From contig CAIVJW010000017.1 of NCBI GenBank assembly GCA_903906315.1, forward strand, positions 1-64,000: DNA of 64,000 bases, read 5' to 3'. A program made the position numbers and the translations under genes. The stretch is from an uncultured delta proteobacterium (GTDB taxonomy: Bacteria; Myxococcota_A; Polyangia; Polyangiales; Polyangiaceae). Shown here piece after piece: positions 14,922 through 57,051 of this stretch. The notes under the pieces were generated by a model that saw only the letters and a program-made list of their open reading frames with translations, made no database searches and was not told the origin of the DNA. Every line of letters starts with the position of its first letter. Position 1 is the first letter of the stretch.

Positions 14922-15488
14922 ATGGGCGACGACCACGACGTTCCGCCTCGCGAAGGCGACTACTCGCCCGACGACAAGTCGGAGGGCGAGGGCAAGCGCC
15001 TGTTCGAGCGCGTCGTGCCGGAGGTCCTCAAGGGCCTCATCGAGCGCGCGCTCGAGCGCGGCGTGGGCCGCATCGCCGAGGGCCCGGAGAACCTGCGCCA
15101 CCTCGTCGGCGATCTCAAGCTGCCGAAGGAGGTGCTCCACTACCTCTACACGCAGATCGACGACACGAAGAACGGCCTGTACCGCGCCGTCGCCAAGGAG
15201 ATCCGCGACGTGCTCGAGCACACGCAGTTCGCCGAGGAGATGACGAAGGTCCTGACGAAGCTGTCCTTCGAAATCAAGACGGAGATCCGCTTCATCCCCA
15301 ACGACGCCGCCAAGGCCGGGGACCGGCGCGACGACTCGGAGGACGAGGACGACGCGAACGAGGACGAAGACGACGCCGAGCCCAAGGGCAAGGCCGGCCT
15401 GCCCAAGCCCGAAGTCTCGGCGCAGGTCACGGTGAAGGATCGCAGCAAGGAGGCGCGGCGCGAGCGCCGACGCCGCGAGGGCCCGTGA
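14922..15488 (+). CDS. Hypothetical helical protein with acidic/basic tail
   Basis: This 188-residue protein has an N-terminal helical domain (FERVVPEVLKGLIERAL, LPKEVLHYLYTQIDDTKNG) followed by a strongly acidic stretch (DDSEDEDDANEDEDDAE) and a basic C-terminus. There is no signal peptide. The IAEGPENLRHLVGDLKLPKEV segment recalls small phasin-like or assembly proteins, but no family was recognised. The stop codon overlaps the start of the next gene (GTGA), so they are probably co-translated. A TAGTGA element lies 10 nt before the ATG, with TTGACG 17 nt further upstream. Confidence 0.75.
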   Translation: MGDDHDVPPREGDYSPDDKSEGEGKRLFERVVPEVLKGLIERALERGVGRIAEGPENLRHLVGDLKLPKEVLHYLYTQIDDTKNGLYRAVAKEIRDVLEHTQFAEEMTKVLTKLSFEIKTEIRFIPNDAAKAGDRRDDSEDEDDANEDEDDAEPKGKAGLPKPEVSAQVTVKDRSKEARRERRRREGP

Positions 15489-15976
15489 CGACGACGAGCA
15501 CGACGAAGAAGCCGAAGACCGGCGGCGAGATCGACTCCTTCTGCACCAAGTGCAAGCTCGACCTCACCCACCGAATCATTGCGATGGTCGGTGAGGTGGT
15601 GAAGAAGGTCGAGTGCAAGACCTGCGGTTCCCACCACCTCTATCGACGACCGAAGAGCGAGCAGCCGCCACCGGGCGTGCGGGCGACGCGGCCTCGCGCC
15701 GAGCGCGCCGGAACGACGGGGGGATCGAGCAAGGGCGAGCGCCTCACGGCCGCGCAGAAGCTCGAGCGCGAGCACACGCAGAGCTGGGAGCGCGCGATCG
15801 CCGGCCAGCCCTCGAGCGCGTTCAGTGCCTACCGGACCACGCTGAGCTTCTCCGCGGGCGAGCTCGTGCGGCACGCGAAGTTCGGCGACGGCGTCGTTTC
15901 TCGCGTCCTCGATCGGCAGAAGATCGAGATCCTGTTCAAGGACGGTCCTCGCACGATGGCTCAAGCGCAGGACTGA
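15485..15976 (+). CDS. Zinc-ribbon protein with C-terminal Tudor-like domain
   Basis: This 163-residue protein starts at GTG 15485, overlapping the previous stop by 4 nt. Residues about 19-50 hold a CxxC...CxxC zinc ribbon (CTKCKLDLTH, CKTCGSHHLYR). The C-terminal 40 residues (GELVRHAKFGDGVVSRVLDRQKIEILF) form a small SH3/Tudor-like beta module of the kind found in UvrD/PcrA C-termini and CarD-like proteins. Together these suggest a nucleic-acid or RNA polymerase binding factor. The stop codon lies in the loop of a perfect hairpin. Confidence 0.8.
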   Translation: MTTTSTTKKPKTGGEIDSFCTKCKLDLTHRIIAMVGEVVKKVECKTCGSHHLYRRPKSEQPPPGVRATRPRAERAGTTGGSSKGERLTAAQKLEREHTQSWERAIAGQPSSAFSAYRTTLSFSAGELVRHAKFGDGVVSRVLDRQKIEILFKDGPRTMAQAQD

Positions 15977-21524: not shown

Positions 21525-21694
21525 GATCGAAGGCGGCCGCGCGCGCATCGGGCGCGCGCGACCACGGGCGGGAATGGAGGCGCGCCTCCACGGCGTTGTC
21601 GCGCCCGTGCAGGACGATGGCGACGAGGCGAGGGGCCCGGAGCGGGCGGGCGCGGGAGGCGACGACGGCGACGCCGGCCCCGGCGGGCCGGAAT

Positions 21695-21723
21695 TTGGGG
21701 GCCGCGCTTCCATAAGCTATCGT
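21695..21723 (+). promoter_or_regulatory. Promoter-like pair before the phosphodiester glycosidase gene
   Basis: TTGGGG (21695-21700) and TATCGT (21718-21723) are 17 nt apart; the start codon GTG 21733 follows 9 nt later, with GAGGGA in the gap. This is one of the few TANNNT elements here with a TTG -35 at standard spacing. Confidence 0.4.
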
Positions 21724-21732
21724 CCGAGGGAC

Positions 21733-23007
21733 GTGGCGAAGTCGAAGCGACGCAGCAAGGACGGGGGGAGGCGCTGGCCGCGCCGGCTCCTCGTGGGCAC
21801 GGCGGTGGTCGCGGTCGGGACCGCGGGCCTCTGGACGGCCATCCACCACGTGCCGGGCTTCGGCCCCGCACTGGCCGACGGGGTGCGCGCAGTCGTCGGC
21901 CCCGCGCCGGTGGCCTGGGCCGAGGACGTCGCCTACGGCGTCGCGGACCGCGTGAACCGGCTGCGCTTCCGCGACGCAAAGCCGAAGGAGTTCTGGGACG
22001 CTCCGCCCCCCGGCGCCCCGACCGCCACACCGCCGAGCCCTGCGACCGCGTCGCCGACGGCCGTCACCGCGGCCTCGGGCGCCCCCACCGCGCCCGGCGC
22101 CGAGGCCGCCAAGCCCGCGGTGACGGCGGCGCCCGACTACCCGCCGCCCGCGTACTCGCCGCCATTCCCTGGCGTCGCGGGCAACGGCGACGGCACCTGG
22201 ATCGCGATGGGCGAGCCGGGCGCGCCCGGCGATCCGCCCGCGATGCACAAGAGCCTGGTCCACCCCGATCCGAAGCGCACCTTCGCCGCGGTCGCGATCG
22301 TCGCGATCGACCTCAAGCGCCTCGACCTCCGCCTCGTCGCCGGCACCGTCGAGCCCGAGTCGAGCGGCGTGCCCAAGGACCGGCGCAAGGGCATGGTCCC
22401 GGCCGAACACTTCGGCGACCTCGTCGCGGTCTTCAACGGCGGCTTCAAGGCCACGCACGGCCACTACGGGATGATGATCGGCGGCGACACGTTCCTTCCG
22501 CCGCGCGACATCGCCTGCACGGTGGGCCTCTTCAGGGACGGCGCGATCCGCATCCGTACGTGGCCCGCGCTGAAGGCCAGCGAGCCCGACATGACCGCGT
22601 ACCGGCAAACGCCGCCGTGCCTCGTCGAGCAGGGCAAGGAGAACGACGCGCTCAGCGTCGAGTACAACCGCAACTGGGGCGCGGCCGTGGGCGGCGAGAC
22701 GGTCATCCGGCGATCGGCGATCGGCATCGACAAGGCCGGCCGCACGCTGTTCTACGGCCTCGGCGAGTCGGTCACCGCGCAGGCGCTCGCGCGGGCGATG
22801 CACGTCGCGGGCGCGGACGGCGCCGCCCAGCTGGACGTGAACTACTCGTACCCGCGGTTCCTGCTGTACGGCAAGACGCCCGGCGTCGACGGGCCGCGCG
22901 CGCAATCGGCGCTCATCCCGGGGCTGAAGTACGTGAGCTGGGAGTACGTCGGCGACGCCTCGCCGCGCGATTTCTTCTACCTGATCCGGCATCGAAGCGC
23001 GTCGTAG
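21733..23007 (+). CDS. Membrane-anchored phosphodiester glycosidase family protein
   Basis: This 424-residue protein has a basic N-terminus, one transmembrane anchor (RRLLVGTAVVAVGTAGLW), a long Pro/Ala/Thr linker (about 95-160), and then a C-terminal NAGPA/DUF2233-type domain with FNGGFKATHGHYGMMIGG, GLGESVTAQALARAM and DGAAQLDVNYS. The family hydrolyses sugar phosphodiesters such as those in cell-surface polymers. The domain would face the periplasm. GTG 21733 was chosen for its GAGGGA ribosome-binding site; an upstream in-frame ATG at 21574 would add 53 low-complexity residues. Confidence 0.82.
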   Translation: MAKSKRRSKDGGRRWPRRLLVGTAVVAVGTAGLWTAIHHVPGFGPALADGVRAVVGPAPVAWAEDVAYGVADRVNRLRFRDAKPKEFWDAPPPGAPTATPPSPATASPTAVTAASGAPTAPGAEAAKPAVTAAPDYPPPAYSPPFPGVAGNGDGTWIAMGEPGAPGDPPAMHKSLVHPDPKRTFAAVAIVAIDLKRLDLRLVAGTVEPESSGVPKDRRKGMVPAEHFGDLVAVFNGGFKATHGHYGMMIGGDTFLPPRDIACTVGLFRDGAIRIRTWPALKASEPDMTAYRQTPPCLVEQGKENDALSVEYNRNWGAAVGGETVIRRSAIGIDKAGRTLFYGLGESVTAQALARAMHVAGADGAAQLDVNYSYPRFLLYGKTPGVDGPRAQSALIPGLKYVSWEYVGDASPRDFFYLIRHRSAS

Positions 23008-23022
23008 CGACGCGCGCGCCGG

Positions 23023-23505
23023 TCACTCGGGCACGACGAGGTGCTCGGCGAGCTCGCGCACCGGCCGCGGCAGGTCCGAGCCCTGCGCGACGCGCAGGAT
23101 GTCGGGGCGAAGCTCGCGGAGCTCGCTCGGAAGCAGCCAGCGCAGCGCGAGGCTGACGAGGAACGGCACGCGCCGGGCGAGGACGGCGCGCACGACGCCG
23201 GTCGACGGGAAGGCGAGCACGACGGCGTCCGGATCGAGCCCGACCGCCCGAGCGGCGTCCTCGATCGCGCCCTCGAACTCGGCGCGCTTCTGCTCGACGG
23301 CCTCGTACAGGACGTGCTCCTCGCCTGCGGTGGCGGGCCGAACGCTGCCGTCCGGCATGAGCAGCGACCACCCGAGCTCCGCGTCGATCGCGACGCGCCC
23401 GCCCGACTCGAGCGTGACGAGAGGCAGCACCGCGCGCCCGCCGAGGACCTCCCCTCGCCCTGCGTCGAGCGCCTCGCGAACCGCCTCCGAGAGCGATGCC
23501 GCCAC
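23023..23505 (-). CDS. Small partner protein coupled to the actin-like ATPase
   Basis: This 160-residue cytoplasmic protein has no recognised family. It looks alpha/beta (GGRAVLPLVTLESGGRVAIDAELGWSLL, DAVVLAFPSTGVVRAVL). Its ribosome-binding site GGAGG overlaps the end of the ATPase gene and sits 6 nt before GTG 23505, while the ATPase stop codon is only 9 nt away. This strongly suggests translational coupling. It may be a nucleotide-exchange or adaptor partner of the ATPase, by analogy with other Hsp70-like operons. That is inference. Confidence 0.7.
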   Translation of the reverse strand: MAASLSEAVREALDAGRGEVLGGRAVLPLVTLESGGRVAIDAELGWSLLMPDGSVRPATAGEEHVLYEAVEQKRAEFEGAIEDAARAVGLDPDAVVLAFPSTGVVRAVLARRVPFLVSLALRWLLPSELRELRPDILRVAQGSDLPRPVRELAEHLVVPE

Positions 23506-23514
23506 CGATGCCTC

Positions 23515-26046
23515 CTACGTCGCGAGCTCGGCGATCGCCGCAAGCAGATCGACCGACCAGCGCGTCGCGTCCTCGCCCGGATCGCCTCCCGGCGGGCCGT
23601 AGGAGACCTCGACACGCGCGGGCCCGACGGCGCGCACGTAGACGCGGTGCCCGATGGCGTCCGCGCCGACGCGACACGAGGCGCGCATCACGCGCGGGTC
23701 GTCGGCGGCGACCTCGGGGTCGTCGGCGGCCACCATGTAGAGCACCTCGACGTCCGGCTTGGTGCACGGGCCGAGCTCGCGCCACACGTCGTAGTCGACC
23801 GTCGGGTCGAGCGCGTCGACCAGCTGGCCGTGGCGCCCGCGACCCACGCGGTAGCGGAACGAGTCGCGGGCCTCGACGCGGCGGCGGGCCCCGACGCGGT
23901 CGAGCCGCATCGCGAGGGCGCCGAGCGCGGTCGACGTCTTGACCGTGGGCGCGGCCATGTTGCCCTTGCCCGGCTCCTGGAAGCGGTGGAGCTTGACCTG
24001 CGCGGGCAAGGCCTTGGTGAGGCGATCGCCGAGCGTCGCGTGGAGCCCGAGCCGACCGCCGAGGAACACGTGCAGCCCGTCGTACGGGTCCGGCCCGCGG
24101 CCGATCTTCACGAGCGACGTCGAGAGCGCGCGCGTGATGCCCTCGACGCCCTCGGTGAGCCAGCCCGCGAGCGCCGAGGTCAGCCCCGGGCGATCGAGCT
24201 CGAGCGCGAGATCGCGAGGCACTCCGCCCTCGTCGCAGAGCGCGACCTTGGCCGGGAGACGGGCCGCGAGGTCGCCGACGAGCACCGGTCGGATCGCCTC
24301 CTTGAGGAGCATGGCGTTCGCGCGCGCCTCGGGCGAGATCGCGAGGAGATCGGCGCCGACGTCGGGGAGCGGCTCGTCGATGGGACGCTCGAACGGGATG
24401 CGCGCCGCGCGCAAGGCCTCGCCGTTCGCCTGGTAGACGCGATACGCGAGCCGGTGCAGGAGGCGCTCGCCGCCGATCGCGGGCAGGATCGTCGGCTCGA
24501 GGTACTCGACCGTCCGCTCGAAGCCGTCCTCGCGCTCGTCGGCGCGCGCCTGGCGGTAGACGCCGCAGACGATCGCCGTCTCGCTCGCGCCGGCGTCGAC
24601 GGTGCAGAACGGGACGGGGCCGTCCTTGGGCTGCACGGCGAACGCGCGGAACGCGTGCACGACGAAGGCGACCGCGGCAGGACCGCCATCGTGAACCTGG
24701 AGCGCGTCGAGGTCGTGGTACTCGACGAGCCCCGCGGGCAGGCTGCGGAAGAGGCCGCGCCGGAACGCGACGAGCACGCTCTGCCTCCGGTCGGACGGCC
24801 AGCCCGTCGGCATCGTCACGGTGTAGCGGAGCGCGATGCCACGCTGCCTGTGGTTGACGTGAAGTCCGACGTAATACGCGTAGATTTCGAGGGGATCGAG
24901 CGGGTCGTGCGCGCCGATGCCCTCCTCGTCGATGATGGGCGGCGCGGGCTTCTTGAGGACCTCGCTCGTGTCCGGGTCCTTGAGCCCGCGGAGGCGCACC
25001 GACTCCTTGCGCTCGATGCGCTCGCGCAGCCACGGCAGCTCCGTCAGCGTCGCGGCCGCGCGGGCGGGCAGATCGGCGCCCGGCTTCGTCCGACGCGCGC
25101 GAGCCTCGTGCCCGGCCACGACGTCCTCCCAGCGCGTCGTCGGCAGGATCACGCGATCGCGCCACGACTTGGCGGTGCGCGAGAGCGAGTCGAACGACAG
25201 CTCGGTCGGGTTCTCGTAGTCGGCCGGCACGGTCGCCGGCGCGGTGGATCCGACGCGCACGAACTCCGTCTGCGGCGACGAGAGGCCGCGCACCGCGACG
25301 ACCGTCGAGGAGGCGCCGAGGTCGATCGCGACCCAGCAGGGCTTCACGTCGAGGCGCGGGTTGCGCGGCTTGAGGTCGGGCGGCGGCGGGTCCTTCTCCG
25401 GGCGGCCAGCGCGGCGGTGGAGGCCGACCACCTTCTTCTCGCGGAGGATCGCGATCTTGGTCGGGCCGAGGAAGCGCGCGCCCGTCCAGAACCCGCGGCT
25501 CGGGTCCGTGAGCGTGGAGCCGGCAACCGGGTCGAGGTTGGCGACCACGAACGGGAAGAAATCCGCGAGCAGGTCGGGCGCGGTCACGCCGTCGTAGCGC
25601 TCCACCTTGATCGGAGGGCTGTAGTAGTCCTGCGGGCCGTTTCCGTAGATCTTCGGCGTGGACTGGATGAGCTTCAGGTAGGGCACCGGGCAGCTCACCT
25701 CGTCGAGGCGGAACTCCTGGTACGCCTTCGACGGGCTGACGAGGTTCTCCATCTCCGGGCCGATGCGCGGGACGCTCTCGCTCATCTCGGTGCCGAAGTA
25801 GAGGAACTTGGTCGCGGCGCCGCCGACGAACGCGCCGAGCCGAACCTCGTTGAAGCTGCCCTGGCCGGCGATCAGAGGCGGCAGCGCGATGCAGTAGTCG
25901 AGCACGATCGTGGTGCTCCACGGCTGCTCGAACAGGCGCGATTCCCAGTTCATCACGACGGTCGGGTAGCCCCGACCCTGGAGCGACACGACCTCTTCGG
26001 CCTGGCGCACCAGGACGGGGTCGATCGACAGCTCGTAGAGCGCCAT
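23515..26046 (-). CDS. Actin/Hsp70-superfamily ATPase with novel N-terminal domain
   Basis: This 843-residue protein has an N-terminal domain (about 1-215) matching nothing I recognise, rich in aromatic and Pro residues (NWESRLFEQPW, YLKLIQSTPKIYGNGPQDYY). A Pro-rich linker follows, then an ATPase of the actin/Hsp70 fold: phosphate-1 motif DLGASST (242-248), phosphate-2 motif DAGASET (484-490) and adenosine motif HVFLGGRLGLH (about 659-669). A beta-rich tail follows. It is much longer than FtsA or MreB and lacks the DnaK peptide-binding domain. TAACGT sits 11 nt before ATG 26046. It is probably cytoplasmic; substrates are unknown. Confidence 0.78.
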   Translation of the reverse strand: MALYELSIDPVLVRQAEEVVSLQGRGYPTVVMNWESRLFEQPWSTTIVLDYCIALPPLIAGQGSFNEVRLGAFVGGAATKFLYFGTEMSESVPRIGPEMENLVSPSKAYQEFRLDEVSCPVPYLKLIQSTPKIYGNGPQDYYSPPIKVERYDGVTAPDLLADFFPFVVANLDPVAGSTLTDPSRGFWTGARFLGPTKIAILREKKVVGLHRRAGRPEKDPPPPDLKPRNPRLDVKPCWVAIDLGASSTVVAVRGLSSPQTEFVRVGSTAPATVPADYENPTELSFDSLSRTAKSWRDRVILPTTRWEDVVAGHEARARRTKPGADLPARAAATLTELPWLRERIERKESVRLRGLKDPDTSEVLKKPAPPIIDEEGIGAHDPLDPLEIYAYYVGLHVNHRQRGIALRYTVTMPTGWPSDRRQSVLVAFRRGLFRSLPAGLVEYHDLDALQVHDGGPAAVAFVVHAFRAFAVQPKDGPVPFCTVDAGASETAIVCGVYRQARADEREDGFERTVEYLEPTILPAIGGERLLHRLAYRVYQANGEALRAARIPFERPIDEPLPDVGADLLAISPEARANAMLLKEAIRPVLVGDLAARLPAKVALCDEGGVPRDLALELDRPGLTSALAGWLTEGVEGITRALSTSLVKIGRGPDPYDGLHVFLGGRLGLHATLGDRLTKALPAQVKLHRFQEPGKGNMAAPTVKTSTALGALAMRLDRVGARRRVEARDSFRYRVGRGRHGQLVDALDPTVDYDVWRELGPCTKPDVEVLYMVAADDPEVAADDPRVMRASCRVGADAIGHRVYVRAVGPARVEVSYGPPGGDPGEDATRWSVDLLAAIAELAT

Positions 26047-49173: not shown

Positions 49174-52100
49174 ATGAGCATCGACGCCACCGACCAGGCC
49201 AGCGAGGGGCTCGCGCCCTCGGATCCCATGTCCCCCGCCCTCCTCGCGGCGGGGCACGCGCCCGACGACGACGCGCTGTGGGACGAGGCCGAGAGGGTCG
49301 CGGCCGACCTCGGCCGGCCCGACGAGATCGCAGCGCTCTACCGCACCGTGATGGCGCGCGACCTCGAGCCCACGCTCGGCGTTCACCTCGGCGAGCGCGC
49401 GGTGCGCTTCCACGGCGAGTGGTTCGAGGAGCCGGCGCCGCTGGCCGAGGTCCTCGGGCGCGTGCTCGCGATCGACCCGACGCAGACCTGGGCGTTCGAC
49501 CGGCTCTCGATGCTGCTCACGGTCGGGGAGCGGTGGGCCGAGCTGCTCGCGCTCTACGACCGCGTGCTGCCGTTCACGACCGACCCCGCGCGCCTGATCG
49601 TGCTGCTGAACGAGGCGGCGCACGCGGCGAAGGACTTCGCGGGCGACGCGGATCGGGCCATCCGCTACCTGGAGGCGCTGTCGGCCCGCAAGCCGGGCGA
49701 CGCGCAGGTCGCCTCGTCGCTCGAGCGCCTGCTCGAGCGCGAGCAGCGCCACGCGGACCTGATCCGGTTCTGGACGGGGCGGCTCGACCACACGACGCCG
49801 GACGCGTCCCAGGCGCTGCGCGTGCGCATCGCCACGTGCCAGCTCGAGCACCTCGGCGACGCGGCGGGCGCCCTCGCCGCGGCGCTGCCGCTCCTCGTGG
49901 ATCCGGCGCACGACGCCCCGGCGGCCGCGATCCTCGGCACGATCTCTTCGTCGGCCGCGGCGCCCGAGCCGACGCGGCGCGAGGCGCTCGACGCGCTGTG
50001 CGAGCACCACGCCTCGCACGGGCGACCGCACGAGGTCGCGCGCGCGCTCGAGGCGTCGCTCCCTGTCGCGCCGCCCGAGGCGCGCCCCGCGCTCCACCGG
50101 CGCATCGCGGACCTGTTCAAGAAGCTCGGCCGCCGCGAGGAAGCGACGCCGCACCTCGCCGCGCTGGTGACGATCGAGCCCGCGAACGACGCCGCCCGCG
50201 ACGAGCTGCGCGATCTGGCGACCAGCACCGGCAAGCTCGACGCCTTCGCGAGCGCCGTCGCGGCCGCGGCGGACGCCTGCGACGACGAGGCGCGCGCCGG
50301 CGCGCTGCGCGTCGAGGCTGCGCGCGTCTACGAGGAGGATCTCGGCGCCGCGCCTCGCGCGATCGCGCTCTATACGCGGGTCTTCCGCTCCACCGGCGCC
50401 GACGACGCGATCGCGCTCACCGTGTCGCGACGGCTCCGCGCGCTGCTCGACCCAGCGACCGATGGCCCCGACCTGCTCGACGTCTTCGAGCGGCTCGCGG
50501 CGCTCGAGCCCGACGACGACGCGCGGCGGGGAGCCCTCGGGCTCGGCGCCGAGCTCGCCGACGCGACCGGCGATCCGAACCGCGCGCTCGGTCTGTGGCG
50601 CCGCCGCCTGGACGCCGACCCCGCCGACCGCGAGGCGCTCGACGCCGTCGTCGGCCTGCTCGAGCGCGCTCGCAGGTACGAGCCCCTCATCAACGCGCTG
50701 CAGAGCCGCGCGGCCGCGGCCATCGACGATCGCGAGCGACGCGAGGACCTCACCGCGATCGCCACGATCTACGCCGATCGGCTCGACGCGGCGCCGGAGG
50801 CCATCGAGGCCTGGCGCGAGGTGGAGCGCGCGTTCGGCCCCGACGGCGAGACGACCGACGCCCTCGACGCGCTGCTGGGGCGGGTCGGGCGGTGGCAAGA
50901 GCTCGCCGAGCTGCTCGACGCCGCGACGGCACGCGAGGTCGATCCGGCCCGCCGCGCCCACGCGCTGCACCGCCTCGGCGACGTGTGCGTCGACCGGCTG
51001 GACGCGCTCGCGCGCGCCGCCGGCTGCTACGAGGCCGCGCTCGCGATCGACCCGGCCCACGACGGCGCGCGAGCGGGGCTCGCCACGCTCCTCGACGACG
51101 AGGGCTGCCGAGCCGGAGCGGCTCGCGTCCTCGCGGCAGCGTACGCCGCGACCGACGATTGGGCGGGGACGCTGCGCTTGCTGCCGCACCGGCTGGCGAC
51201 CGCCGCGGACGACGCCGAGCGCACCGAGCGGCTCCTCGAGGCGGCGCGGCTGCACGAGCTGCGCGCCGAGGACCTCGCGGGGGCGCTCGACGACGTGGCG
51301 CGCGCGATGCCGATCTCCCCGGAGGATCCGAGCATCGAAGAGGAGCTCCAGCGCCTCGCGCACGCGACCGGCGCGTGGGCGATCGCGTCGGACGCGTACC
51401 GCGCCGCGATCCCGCGCGCGACGGATCCTGCCCGGCTCGCGACGCTCCGGCACCATCACGGGATGCTGCTCGAGACCCGGATCGGCGATCTCCCCGCGGC
51501 GCTCGAGGCCTACCTCGCGATGGCCGCGCTCGCGCCGGGCAGCCTCGCCGCCGCGCAGGCGTCGGTGCGCGTCGCGGCGAGCACGGGGCGCTGGGACGTC
51601 GCGGCGGAGGCGACCCTCGACTCGGCGCGCGTGCGCGGGCGCGTCGAGCCGGCGCTCGTCGACGAGCTCGAGGCCGCCGCGGAGGCGGCGAGCGAGTGGG
51701 ACGCGGCCGCGGCCTCGCTGTGGGCCGCGATCGACGCGGCGAACGAGGATCGCGCGCTGGAGCCGGAGGTCGCCCGCGAGATCGGCATGCTGGTCGCAGC
51801 GTGGCACCGCGACCGGCGCGGCGACGCGGCGGCCGCGGAGCAAACGCTCGTCGCGACGCTCGCGCGGGCCGGCCAGAGCGTGCGCGCGCTCTCGGCCCTC
51901 GCCGACCTGCAGCGACGCGCGCCGGGCCGGTCGCTCATCGACACGCTGCTGGCGCTCGCGGCCGCAGGGCACGAGCCGCTCGAGTCGATGCGCGAGGCCG
52001 CCGAGGTCGCGCTGCGCGCGGTCGACCGGACGCTGGCTGCGACGATCCTGGAGCGGCTCTTCGCGCAAGCGTCGCAGCGCTGGGTCGACGAGGCGCACGA

Positions 52101-55100
52101 CGCCGGGCGCCTCGAGGATCACGCGACGTTCGCGCTCGATCGGCTCGTCGAGCTGTCGATCGCGGACCACGATCACAACCGCGCGCTGCTCCTGCTCGTC
52201 GAGGGCGCGCGCCTCCCCTTCTCGGTCGCGACCGCCCGCGCCATGGTCCACCGCGCGGCCGCCATCGCCGCCGACGATCTCCGCGACGCGGATCGCGCGA
52301 TCGCCCTCTACCGCGGCATCCTCTCGCGCGCGCCGGACGACGCGCCGGCGATCCTTCGCCTCGGAGAGCTCTTCCTCGCCGAGAGCCGGATGGACGACCT
52401 GGTCGCGCTGCGGCGCCACCAGATCGCGCTCACGCTGCCGACGATCGACGCGCCTCCGATCGAGGAGGACGCGTCCGAATTCGGCGCCCCGGACGATCGC
52501 GATCGGACGCCGCCTGCGCCCGCCGACGACGCCGTCGAGCGCCGCCTCGCGCTGCGGCTCGACATCGCCGCCCTGCTCGGCCGGACGGGCGAGATCGTCG
52601 GCCGCGTCGAGGCGCTCCTCGAGAACCTCGCCGAGCGCCCTGGCCACCTCGCGTCGGTGGAGGAGCTCGACGCGGTCCTCGGCGCCGCCGGCCGCCACGG
52701 CGAGCTCTGCGATCGGCTCACAGAGCAGGCCGCGACGGTCGAGGAGCGCGGTGATCGCGACGAGGCCCGCGTCCTCTGGGAGCGCGTCGGCGCCCTGGCC
52801 GAGGAGCAGCTCGTCGATCCGCCGCGCGCGATCGAAGCCCGCAAGCGCGCGGTGGCGATCGGCGAGACGCCGGCCTCGCTCGACGCGCTGGCCCGCCTGC
52901 ACGTCGGGCGAGGGCAGCACGCCGCCGCCGTCGGCTGGCTCGAGCGGCGCGCGGCGAAAGCCGAGCCCGCGGAGCGCGCCGGCATCGCGTCGCAGCTCGC
53001 CCGCGCGCACGTCGCGTCGGGGCGAGCGGAGCGAGCGCGCGCGTGCCTCGAGGACGCCCTCGCAGTCGAGCCGGGAGCCCGCGCGCTGCGCGCCGAGCTC
53101 GCGGCGCTCTACCGCACGTCGGAGGCGTGGGAGGACCTGGTCCGCACGCTCGCCGGCGGCGCGGCGAACACCGGCGACGTCGAGGCGAAGCTCGCGTTCC
53201 TGCGCAACGCGGCGGACGTCGAGCTCTCGAAGCGAAAGAGCCCTTCGGCGGCGATCCCGCTGCTCGAGGAGGCCACCGCGCTCGCGCCGAGCGACCGCGC
53301 GACGAGGACCCAGCTCGCCGACGCGCTCCGCGAGACGGGCCGCCTCGACGCGGCGCACGAGCTGCTCGGCAAGCTCGTCGAGGAGTTCGGACGGCGGCGC
53401 CCACCCGAGCGCGCGGAGCTGCACTTCCGGCTCGCGCAGGTGGCACGAGCGCGCCACGACCTCGGCGAGGCGCGCACGCAGCTCGAGTCGGCGACGAGCA
53501 TGGACGTCGGGCACGCCGGGGCCTATCGCGCCCTCGGCGACCTCTACCGTGACGAGGCCGAGCTCGAGCGCGCCGAGCGGGCGTACCGCGCGCTGCTGCT
53601 GATCGTCCTTCGCCGCGCCCGCGAGCCCGGCGAGGCCTCGGGCGCGAGCGAGGTCCTCCTCGAGCTGTACCGGCTCGCCAAGCGCCTGGACCGGGCCGAT
53701 CGCGCCGCCGAGGTCCTGGCCTCGGCCTTCGAAGCGGCCGGCGAGAGCGACGCCGAGTCGCGCATCTTCGAGAGGGCGCTCGTCGCCGCCGGCGAGCGTG
53801 AGCTCACCTTGCGGGCCCTCGAGGCGCGCCTCGCGCGCACCGAAGGCGGCGCCGCCGCGGCGCGGGTGCTGTCCGAGGTCGGGGACGTCCACGAAGCCCT
53901 CGGTCACGCGGCCGAGGCGCTCGACGCCCGCCTGCGCGCGCTCGGGCACGCCCCCACGGCCGCGGAGCTCCACGACGCCGCCCGAGCGGCCGCGTCGCGC
54001 GCCGGGGCGAGCGAGCGCTACGCGGGCGCGCTCACCGCGATCGCCGAACGCGCCAGGAGCGAGGCCGAGGGCGACCTCGCCTGCCAGCTCTACGTGAGGC
54101 TCGGCGAGGCGATCGAGGCCGACCTCGGTGACAAGCCCAGGGCGCGCGACGCCTACCGGAGCGCCGAGGAGTCGGGATCGGCCACGTTGCCGGTCTTCCG
54201 CGCCCTCGACCGCCTCGCGGCCGACCTCGGCGATCGAGACGGCCAGATCCACGCGCTCCGCCAGATCGTGCTCGCCGGCGGCGACGAGGGGGATCCGGCG
54301 CGCCAGACGGACGACCTCTACCGGCTCGCCCGGATGGAGCTCGCGTCGCAAGGCACGTTCGACCAGGGCATCGACACGCTCGTGTGGGCGCTCGATCACG
54401 AGGCGCGCAACGAGGACGCCGCGACCCTGCTCGAGGGCGCCGCCCGCCTGCGGCCCGAGCCTGCGGTGATCGCGCTTTACGAGCGCGTCGCGCGCGCGGC
54501 CGACGATCGGCCGCGCCTGCTCGACGCGATCGAGCTCGGCTCGCGCCTCGAGGGCGCCACCGTCGACGCGCTCCGCGAGGCGAGCGACCTCGCGACCGAG
54601 CTCGGCGACCCGGCGCGGGCCGAGGCGGCCCTGCTGCGCGCCGTCGAGGTGGCCGAAAAGGAGGGCAACGAGGCCGGCGCGGCCTGGGCGCTCGGCGCGC
54701 TCGCGGACGCGCACGAGCGCGCGGGCGAGCTCTCGCGCGCGGTCGAGTTCCTCCGCCGCGCCGCCGACCACGCCGACCCGGACGACGCGACGCGCCTCCG
54801 CGTCCGCGTCGCCGAGCTCGCGGCCGGTCCCCTCGGCGACCTCGCGCTCGCGATCGAGACCTACGAGCGGCTCCACGATCGCGAGCCGGGCGACAAGGCG
54901 TTCTGGGAGCCGCTCCTCGCGGCCCACCGCCGCCGCGGCGACGCAGAGGCCCTCGAGGCGCGGCTCGCGACCGTCATCGACGGCGTGTTCGAGGCCGAGG
55001 ACCGCGTGCGCCTGCGCCTCGAGCGCGCGAAGCTCCTGCTCGCGCGGGGCGACCGCGACGAAGACGCCATGGCCGTGCTGCGCGAGGTGCTCGACGAGGA

Positions 55101-57051
55101 CCCGAGCCACGAGGAGGCGGGCGATCTGCTGATCGGGGCCTGCGAGCGGCTCGGCCTCGACGAGGCCCTCGCCGAGCTCCTCTCGCGGCGCCTGGACGCC
55201 GCCCGCGACCGCAAGGCAGGATCGGCCGTCGAGGCGCTGTCGCTGCGGCTCGCCGCGCTGTATGCGGCGACGCGACGCGACGACGCCCGCGAGGTGCTGC
55301 GCGGCGCGCTGTCCGAGGCCGGCGACAGCCGAGCGGTCATCGAGGCCCTGCTCGCCCTGCTCGAGGGCGACGACGACGCGCAGGAGCGGGCGGACCTGCT
55401 CGAGCGCCTGCTCGGGTTCGAGAGCGGTCCGGCCGCACGGGAGCGCGCGATCGCGCTCGCCGACGCGCGCGCGACGATCGGCGACGAGGGCGGCGTCGAG
55501 CGCGCGCTCGAGACCGCGTTCCGCGCACAGCCGGACGACGACTCGACCCGCGAGCGCCTGCGCCGCTGGTACGACGACCACGGCAAGCACGCGCAGCTCG
55601 CCGGGCTCGTCTCGCTCGAGGCCGCCGGCCTCCGCGACCCCGCCGCCGCCGCCGCGAAGCTGCGCGAAGCCGCCGCCATCCACCGCGACCGGCTCGGGGA
55701 CCCGCGCGCCGCCGCCCGCGAGCTGCGCGCCGCGCTCGATCGCACCCCGGGCGACCTCGCGATCATCGTCGATCACGCCCGCTGCCTCGCCGCGGCCGGC
55801 GATCACGCCGACGCCGTCACGGCGATCGGCGCGGCGCTCGAGGGCCGCACCCCGGGTTCGATCGAACGCGTCGATCTCCTGCGGCTCCGCGCCGAGCTGC
55901 GGTCGCTCGCCGGCGACGAGGCGCAGGCGCTCGCGGACCTGGAGCTCGGCTTCGGCGAGGCGCCCTCGCAGGTCGGCGCGGACCTCGCGGCGGCGCTCGA
56001 ACGCAAGCGCGCGGGCGCGGCCGAGGCCGGCGACGCCGCCACGGAGCGCGACGCGACGATGCGGCTCTGCGACGTCACGAACCAGCTCGGCGACCCGGGT
56101 CGCGCGCACCGCTTGCTCTCGGAATGGGCCCTGCGCGCGCCCGACGACGTGACCGCGCTCCGCACGCTCCAAGACCTCGCCATCGCCGGCGAGCGCTGGG
56201 AGGAAGCCTCATCGCTCGCGGACCGCCTCGTGCGGCTCGAGCAGGGCGAAGCGCGCGTCATCGCGGCGCTCCGCCTCGTCGACGCCGCGGAGCGCGTCGG
56301 GCAGCCCGACTCGGCCCGCACCGCGCTCGAGCTCGTGCTGCGCGAGGAGCCCGCCGACGCGCGCCTCCACGCGCCCCTCGAGGCCATCTACGAGCGCACC
56401 GGCGCGCACCGCGAGCTCGCCGAGCTCTGCCTCGCCCGCGCGGCGCTGCTCGAGGACCGGGACGCGCGCTTCGGCGAGCTCCGACGTGCCGGCCAGCTCT
56501 GGCTCCACGGCGTCCGCGAGCCGCTCCGCGCCGTCGAGGCGCTCACGGCCGCGCGCGAGCTGCACCCGGACGACCACGACGCCGTCGTCCTGCTCGCCGA
56601 CGCCTATCTGCAGGGCGGCCTGCTCCAGGAAGCGACGACCATGCTCGGCGACGCGGTCGCCGCGCACCGCGGCCGCCGCTCGCGCGAGGTCGCCGTGCTC
56701 CAGCAGCGCATGGCGCGCGTGGCCTACGCCACGGGCGACCGGACCATCGAGATCGCGTGGCTCAACGCGGCGCTCGACAGCGACAAGCAGAACGGCGAGG
56801 TCGCCTCCGAGCTGGCCGAGGCCGCCATCGCGACCGACAACCTCGAGGTCGCGCTGAAGGCGCTACGCGCGATCACCTCGATGCGGTCGGTCAGCACCAC
56901 CGAGCGCGCCGTGGCCCTCCTGCGGCAAGGCCAGATCGCCCACCGGCAGGGCGACGTGAGGCGGGCGATCCTGATGGCCAAGAAGGCCCAGAGCGAGGAC
57001 CCGGAGCTCGCAGAGGTCACGGCCTTCCTCGCCGAGATCGGTGGATCCTGA
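49174..57051 (+). CDS. Giant TPR-repeat protein
   Basis: This 2,625-residue protein is built almost wholly of TPR-like helical pairs (for example GRWQELAELLDAATAREVDPARRAHALHRLGDVCVDRL). There is no signal peptide or transmembrane helix. TPR solenoids bind proteins; a polypeptide this long probably scaffolds a large cytoplasmic complex. Ala, Arg, Leu, Asp and Glu make up most of it. AGGAAG lies 4-6 nt before ATG 49174, and TATGCT is 40 nt upstream. A 2,670-codon open frame on the opposite strand overlaps it; the sense frame is preferred because it is a coherent TPR protein. Confidence 0.88.
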   Translation: MSIDATDQASEGLAPSDPMSPALLAAGHAPDDDALWDEAERVAADLGRPDEIAALYRTVMARDLEPTLGVHLGERAVRFHGEWFEEPAPLAEVLGRVLAIDPTQTWAFDRLSMLLTVGERWAELLALYDRVLPFTTDPARLIVLLNEAAHAAKDFAGDADRAIRYLEALSARKPGDAQVASSLERLLEREQRHADLIRFWTGRLDHTTPDASQALRVRIATCQLEHLGDAAGALAAALPLLVDPAHDAPAAAILGTISSSAAAPEPTRREALDALCEHHASHGRPHEVARALEASLPVAPPEARPALHRRIADLFKKLGRREEATPHLAALVTIEPANDAARDELRDLATSTGKLDAFASAVAAAADACDDEARAGALRVEAARVYEEDLGAAPRAIALYTRVFRSTGADDAIALTVSRRLRALLDPATDGPDLLDVFERLAALEPDDDARRGALGLGAELADATGDPNRALGLWRRRLDADPADREALDAVVGLLERARRYEPLINALQSRAAAAIDDRERREDLTAIATIYADRLDAAPEAIEAWREVERAFGPDGETTDALDALLGRVGRWQELAELLDAATAREVDPARRAHALHRLGDVCVDRLDALARAAGCYEAALAIDPAHDGARAGLATLLDDEGCRAGAARVLAAAYAATDDWAGTLRLLPHRLATAADDAERTERLLEAARLHELRAEDLAGALDDVARAMPISPEDPSIEEELQRLAHATGAWAIASDAYRAAIPRATDPARLATLRHHHGMLLETRIGDLPAALEAYLAMAALAPGSLAAAQASVRVAASTGRWDVAAEATLDSARVRGRVEPALVDELEAAAEAASEWDAAAASLWAAIDAANEDRALEPEVAREIGMLVAAWHRDRRGDAAAAEQTLVATLARAGQSVRALSALADLQRRAPGRSLIDTLLALAAAGHEPLESMREAAEVALRAVDRTLAATILERLFAQASQRWVDEAHDAGRLEDHATFALDRLVELSIADHDHNRALLLLVEGARLPFSVATARAMVHRAAAIAADDLRDADRAIALYRGILSRAPDDAPAILRLGELFLAESRMDDLVALRRHQIALTLPTIDAPPIEEDASEFGAPDDRDRTPPAPADDAVERRLALRLDIAALLGRTGEIVGRVEALLENLAERPGHLASVEELDAVLGAAGRHGELCDRLTEQAATVEERGDRDEARVLWERVGALAEEQLVDPPRAIEARKRAVAIGETPASLDALARLHVGRGQHAAAVGWLERRAAKAEPAERAGIASQLARAHVASGRAERARACLEDALAVEPGARALRAELAALYRTSEAWEDLVRTLAGGAANTGDVEAKLAFLRNAADVELSKRKSPSAAIPLLEEATALAPSDRATRTQLADALRETGRLDAAHELLGKLVEEFGRRRPPERAELHFRLAQVARARHDLGEARTQLESATSMDVGHAGAYRALGDLYRDEAELERAERAYRALLLIVLRRAREPGEASGASEVLLELYRLAKRLDRADRAAEVLASAFEAAGESDAESRIFERALVAAGERELTLRALEARLARTEGGAAAARVLSEVGDVHEALGHAAEALDARLRALGHAPTAAELHDAARAAASRAGASERYAGALTAIAERARSEAEGDLACQLYVRLGEAIEADLGDKPRARDAYRSAEESGSATLPVFRALDRLAADLGDRDGQIHALRQIVLAGGDEGDPARQTDDLYRLARMELASQGTFDQGIDTLVWALDHEARNEDAATLLEGAARLRPEPAVIALYERVARAADDRPRLLDAIELGSRLEGATVDALREASDLATELGDPARAEAALLRAVEVAEKEGNEAGAAWALGALADAHERAGELSRAVEFLRRAADHADPDDATRLRVRVAELAAGPLGDLALAIETYERLHDREPGDKAFWEPLLAAHRRRGDAEALEARLATVIDGVFEAEDRVRLRLERAKLLLARGDRDEDAMAVLREVLDEDPSHEEAGDLLIGACERLGLDEALAELLSRRLDAARDRKAGSAVEALSLRLAALYAATRRDDAREVLRGALSEAGDSRAVIEALLALLEGDDDAQERADLLERLLGFESGPAARERAIALADARATIGDEGGVERALETAFRAQPDDDSTRERLRRWYDDHGKHAQLAGLVSLEAAGLRDPAAAAAKLREAAAIHRDRLGDPRAAARELRAALDRTPGDLAIIVDHARCLAAAGDHADAVTAIGAALEGRTPGSIERVDLLRLRAELRSLAGDEAQALADLELGFGEAPSQVGADLAAALERKRAGAAEAGDAATERDATMRLCDVTNQLGDPGRAHRLLSEWALRAPDDVTALRTLQDLAIAGERWEEASSLADRLVRLEQGEARVIAALRLVDAAERVGQPDSARTALELVLREEPADARLHAPLEAIYERTGAHRELAELCLARAALLEDRDARFGELRRAGQLWLHGVREPLRAVEALTAARELHPDDHDAVVLLADAYLQGGLLQEATTMLGDAVAAHRGRRSREVAVLQQRMARVAYATGDRTIEIAWLNAALDSDKQNGEVASELAEAAIATDNLEVALKALRAITSMRSVSTTERAVALLRQGQIAHRQGDVRRAILMAKKAQSEDPELAEVTAFLAEIGGS

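Follow-up and report, generated by a model that had tools for sequence, protein, structure and literature searches.

P0001, an 843-residue Hsp70/actin-like protein encoded in the analysed window (the whole stretch of 64,000 nucleotides of DNA), is best read as a clade-specific branch of a wider, undescribed Hsp70-like family of the ASKHA fold that lacks the peptide domain. We see about an even chance that this branch, in which catalytic positions are altered, acts as a nucleotide-binding switch or scaffold, with the 160-residue protein P0002 as an auxiliary partner. An earlier note, made from the sequence of the window, had placed open reading frames of 843 and 160 residues at 23023–26046 and had described them as a two-part actin/Hsp70-like ATPase system. 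Coordinates and lengths were borne out (Table 1), and both frames were accepted as genuine genes because full-length orthologs show conservation at the protein level.

Table 1. Features of the P0001–P0002 locus (positions in the window)
Feature	Position	Strand	Remarks
P0001, 843-aa Hsp70/actin-like protein	23515..26046	minus	ATG start, TAG stop; orthologs across residues 1-840
P0001 N-terminal domain, residues 1-215	25402..26046	minus	no relatives known outside the clade
P0001 Hsp70/actin-like nucleotide-binding core, residues 237-712	23911..25338	minus	hhalign to long family; BLASTP to plasmid protein P0003
Phosphate-1 motif, D242-LGASST	25303..25323	minus	Ala at the DnaK T11 position (orthologs: A/S/T)
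Connect-1 region, D453-GGPAA	24673..24690	minus	DnaK E171 position is A457
Phosphate-2 motif, D484-AGASET	24577..24597	minus	DnaK T199 position is E489
Adenosine-type motif, G663-GRLGLH	24040..24060	minus	
P0001 C-terminal domain, residues 720-843	23518..23889	minus	common to long family (hhalign E 9.5e-7) and plasmid relatives
TAGGAGG, P0001 stop codon overlapping P0002 ribosome-binding site	23511..23517	minus	
P0002, 160-aa protein, conserved orphan family	23023..23505	minus	GTG start

Full-length orthologs of P0001 (49–64% identity) were present in 29 of the 184 genomes of the order, distributed over 11 genera of one family, and an ortholog was also found in Sorangium cellulosum So0008-312. 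All sampled carriers fell into one clade of an rpoB tree (division support 100/99), which is most simply explained by a single gain of the gene followed by inheritance; in the window's clade it stands alone on the chromosome and is inherited vertically. Most carriers share the same neighbours, a convergent phosphodiester-glycosidase-like gene (21574–23007 in the window) and two small genes of no clear family assignment (14922–15488 and 15485–15976), and these regions (14922–15976 and 21574–23007) form a syntenic block with the P0001 gene. No functional partner was visible near the P0001 gene or its orthologs, the conserved neighbours having no evident link to P0001. Further along, the window encodes a 2625-residue protein with many TPR repeats (49174–57051).

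Up to an E value of 10, neither protein matched Pfam, NCBIfam or PADLOC; PHROGs gave no match up to an E value of 1, and no curated Hsp70 (DnaK family) model of Pfam or NCBIfam reached its cut-off with P0001. Searching the PDB with P0001 alone returned nothing, and PDB searches with profiles of the P0001 and P0002 families gave weak, non-significant matches only. We also considered SrfB (PF07520) of the srfABC operons, which we take to be a large bacterial protein, possibly Hsp70/actin-like; this identity was rejected, as P0001 did not match PF07520 at E values up to 10. A phage or viral origin was likewise discarded, no homolog being found in phage or viral collections. The description as "undescribed" was thus appropriate, since no family name exists for P0001 in the libraries searched. 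Judged by its sequence conservation, P0001 is a real, conserved and unnamed protein from one myxobacterial group.

Direct comparison of P0001 with DnaK by hhalign was not significant, and homology to DnaK runs via a family of longer proteins (about 900–980 residues) from the same order, here termed the long family. Residues 226–826 of P0001 aligned with this family (hhalign E 3e-23), the core of which in turn aligned with DnaK (hhalign E 1.1e-9); the long family also gave weak NCBIfam matches to HscA/DnaK, and its top PDB match was DnaK (E 0.0034). The fold class proposed in the earlier note could therefore be reached by homology through the long family. Outside the clade, Hsp70-like proteins matched residues 166–834. 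They included a protein of the Acinetobacter piscicola plasmid pYH12207-1 (tblastn E 1e-52 over residues 234–814; BLASTP covering 166–814), which has a tandem paralog, a plasmid protein of Helicobacter sp. NHP19-012 (E 3e-14) and a protein from one other myxococcotal genome, G355, which belongs to a different family within the phylum (E 2e-59 in the profile search, with a BLASTP match reaching residue 834). Current family libraries have missed this Hsp70-like family, which has relatives encoded on plasmids and close to dynamin GTPases. As a separate observation, genome G000 yielded 13 DnaK/Hsp70-type matches; two of these are larger Hsp70-like frames that form a pair on contig C155.

The phosphate-1, phosphate-2 and adenosine motifs named in the earlier note are all present (D242, D484 and G663), and the DnaK-type peptide (substrate) binding domain is indeed absent: the core is followed instead by a C-terminal domain of 124 residues that matches the tail of the long family and has no Pfam match. 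Likewise, the N-terminal domain of 215 residues, which had already resisted placement, found no match in Pfam, PHROGs or the PDB, nor did the first 236 residues alone, and hhalign detected no match between it and the N-terminal domain of the long family. Together with residues 346–440, this domain is the best-conserved part of P0001 (mean column identity about 0.77–0.79), while the segments around phosphate-1 and phosphate-2 lie below it at about 0.69. A short D-P-x-x-G-x-W-like motif at the end of the N-terminal domain is present in all relatives. The N-terminal domains themselves differ among the relatives, with a weak match to Lcl_C in Acinetobacter and another domain in the long family, suggesting that a common engine may have been fitted with different recognition modules. 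A structure model of P0001 from a two-row alignment (pLDDT 32) was too low in confidence to be used.

From connect-1 to phosphate-2, the clade could be aligned with the Acinetobacter proteins nearly without gaps. All relatives outside the clade carry (S/T)E(P/A) at connect-1 and DxGGGT at phosphate-2. The position of DnaK T199 is Glu (E489) in 23 of 23 clade orthologs and Thr in all outside relatives; the position of DnaK E171 (457) is Ala, Ser or Asn in the clade and Glu in all outside relatives. The T11 position holds Ala or Ser in most clade orthologs, while the D194 position (484) stays acidic throughout, as Asp or, in some, Glu. Catalytic positions were altered only in the window's clade, and none of the Hsp70 catalytic residues T11, E171 and T199 is kept in P0001. 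K70 was dropped from the list of lost catalytic residues; relatives with intact motifs have no Lys there either. The designation "ATPase" is doubtful because the T199, E171 and mostly also the T11 positions are replaced; every ortholog has lost side chains that serve hydrolysis in Hsp70.

In DnaK, the substitution T199A greatly reduces ATPase activity and leaves the ATP-driven conformational change intact, E171 helps, together with D8 and D194, to keep the Mg-water shell in place, and T11 and K70 contact the gamma-phosphate (PMC12406271, PMC13012618). The T199A phenotype and the roles of E171, D8 and D194 make it plausible that P0001 lost hydrolysis while retaining switching. Hsp70-type hydrolysis by the proteins of the clade is thus unlikely, whereas nucleotide binding and switching are possible, and P0001 probably serves as an ATP-binding switch or scaffold and not as a chaperone. 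We consider it rather unlikely that P0001 is still an active ATPase whose catalytic acid has been relocated, with E489 standing in for the Glu lost at the E171 position so that hydrolysis would drive the cycle. Such a relocation would fit the co-occurrence of the changes at the E171 and T199 positions, seen together in all orthologs and absent from all outgroups, the acidic residue kept at position 484 and the strong constraint on the core, but T11 has been lost as well in most orthologs, and we know of no ASKHA protein with an acid at the T199 position. The fuller version, a working motor whose acid moved from the E171 to the T199 position and which couples a rewired active site to an N-terminal recognition domain with a novel fold, appears less likely still.

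The best reading remains a scaffold derived from an Hsp70-like/dynamin system that would bind ATP and hydrolyse it poorly. In such a scaffold, the core would bind nucleotide and ATP would close it; closure would set the position of the conserved N-terminal recognition domain and of the C-terminal domain, and both domains would dock other proteins. Strong selection continued to act on the core in the window's clade once its hydrolysis residues had been replaced. This raises a clear question: whether an Hsp70-type core that carries Glu in place of the phosphate-2 threonine can bind ATP, and whether it retains the ability to hydrolyse it.

A derivation from a dynamin-linked system was suggested by the gene context of the relatives, most of which are encoded close to a dynamin-type GTPase or a coiled-coil protein. 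In G355, a Dynamin_N GTPase gene is located three genes after the Hsp70-like gene (two between), and dynamin GTPase neighbours of relatives were recorded at loci L114, L117, L118 and L180. Genes of the long family accompany a coiled-coil protein of 240–290 residues, a Dynamin_N GTPase (about 850–880 residues) or both, and at some of these loci a gene for a protein kinase or for a PP2C-like phosphatase is also present. The tails of the coiled-coil proteins were compared with the GrpE wing; the long family alone gave no significant result, and a single comparison with the plasmid relatives added reached hhalign E 2e-4, so that the likeness to GrpE is suggestive only. The closest outside relatives tie P0001 to dynamin-type GTPases and coiled-coil proteins, a context on which the earlier note could not draw, although no linked GTPase or GrpE gene was recognised near the P0001 gene or its orthologs. 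Within Polyangiales, a long Hsp70-like protein lacking the peptide domain, a Dynamin_N GTPase of ~850–880 residues and a ~650-residue protein of unknown family are encoded together (L117:71-8359, L118:2379-11661, L120:1132-7998 and L116:981-5998), in some cases with a coiled coil bearing a GrpE-like tail or with a protein kinase; this arrangement is an undescribed conserved gene cluster.

On the A. piscicola plasmid pYH12207-1 (L180:1-13871), the tandem Hsp70-like genes are preceded by the gene of an ATP-binding protein (HerA/FtsK-like on visual inspection) and by a coiled-coil gene; after them come genes for a HEPN protein, a short dynamin-family protein and a recombinase/integrase; a HipA gene is also near, and the region looks like a mobile conflict-type island. 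On the Helicobacter sp. NHP19-012 plasmid (L181:5115-13810), a coiled coil with a GrpE-like tail is encoded upstream of the Hsp70-like gene; downstream lie genes for an FtsK-type ATPase and a small protein resembling WXG100 (by eye). The Hsp70-like protein is split there over two overlapping open reading frames and is thus perhaps frameshifted.

In line with what has been inferred for related Hsp70/GTPase operons, P0001 itself might still take part in a defence or conflict response, with a dynamin and an effector supplied in trans. The dynamin, HEPN, recombinase and HipA genes around the Acinetobacter relative and the dynamin gene two genes from the relative at L114 are consistent with this idea, as is the use of an Hsp70 without peptide domain plus GrpE in published GTPase-centred conflict systems (PMC7159879). 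We nevertheless regard it as improbable: the P0001 gene is single-copy and vertically inherited, no dynamin or effector gene was recognised in its conserved chromosomal surroundings, and the searches of PADLOC and of the phage and viral collections described above were negative.

As to the partnership with P0002, the coding strand at the gene junction reads GCGACG TAG GAGGCATCG GTG GCG (continuous sequence: GCGACGTAGGAGGCATCGGTGGCG). The TAG stop codon of P0001 is part of TAGGAGG, which is spaced 5 nt from the GTG of P0002, in agreement with the earlier statement that the ribosome site of the smaller gene overlaps the end of the larger one. Orthologs of P0002 share about 41–46% identity (24 invariant columns in an alignment of 10 sequences) and occur in 21 of the 29 P0001 carriers; in the 155 other genomes of the order none was detected at E below 1e-40. 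Only in the window genome, one of the 21 with both, do the two genes adjoin. In the other 20 they lie about 48 kb to >1 Mb apart or on different contigs, and the unlinked P0002 orthologs have no common gene neighbourhood. No P0002 was found in genome G141 or in the P0001 carriers of two genera, g6 with 4 genomes and g67 with 3, indicating that P0001 works without P0002 somewhere. Lack of linkage in 20 of 21 genomes and absence from g6 and g67 make P0002 at most auxiliary.

Hence, of the two-part system, adjacency and the overlapping site in the window stood, whereas linkage did not extend to other genomes: the pair is conserved in co-occurrence but not in gene order. Co-occurrence is mild evidence of a link because everything follows one clade, and it was rejected as proof of an interaction, as presence tracks that clade. 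A better hint comes from the operon that the two genes form in the window genome, although the link may be incidental given the absence in g6 and g67. We infer that P0002 is a probable auxiliary binding partner in those lineages that keep it. A hybrid kinase encoded downstream of the P0001 ortholog in Sorangium (L002, L020) was considered as an enlarged partner and rejected, being unrelated to P0002.

A single-sequence model of P0002 reached pLDDT 65 and had no Foldseek match below E 0.37. Its family profile gave a non-significant match to FtsA (E 0.027) at approximately residues 57–104 (window 23034–23335), which bears on a very improbable reading of P0001 as a protein forming putative nucleotide-dependent filaments like those of MreB, ParM and FtsA, with P0002 as regulator or anchor. 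FtsA assembles upon ATP binding and does not need fast hydrolysis, and P0001 belongs to the same ASKHA fold class. However, the sequence of P0001 leads to Hsp70 and not to the polymerising actins, it carries big extra N- and C-terminal domains, the FtsA match belongs to P0002, and a segregation-type gene context was not seen.

Compared with the nucleotide-binding domain of DnaK/Hsp70 (TIGR02350, NF003520), P0001 arranges its phosphate-1, connect-1, phosphate-2, LGG and adenosine motifs in the same order and shares the fold class, which was reached via the long family. It differs in lacking the substrate-binding domain, in the replacement of T199, E171 and mostly T11 and in its extra N- and C-terminal domains, and it gave no direct HMM match. 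CnuD of the type III CoCoNuT systems (CnuCD) has been described with both nucleotide- and substrate-binding domains and accompanies McrB/McrC homologs (PMC11090510). Like CnuD, the family of P0001 has an Hsp70-like core found in nuclease/coiled-coil operons, a HEPN gene adjoining the Acinetobacter relative; no McrB/McrC-type genes were recognised in the gene lists of the window and of the ortholog neighbourhoods, a minority of whose genes were scanned against Pfam. In the GTPase-centred conflict systems (DO-GTPase), GrpE is paired with an Hsp70 that lacks the peptide domain (Kaur et al. 2020, PMC7159879). P0001 has such a core, but no GTPase or GrpE-like protein was recognised among its gene neighbours, and no GAP1 gene was recognised. 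A coiled coil resembling GrpE and a GTPase are encoded close to the relatives of P0001, not to P0001 itself, and these GTPases are dynamin-type, not DO-type. The context of the relatives is a thematic match to the GTPase-centred conflict systems.
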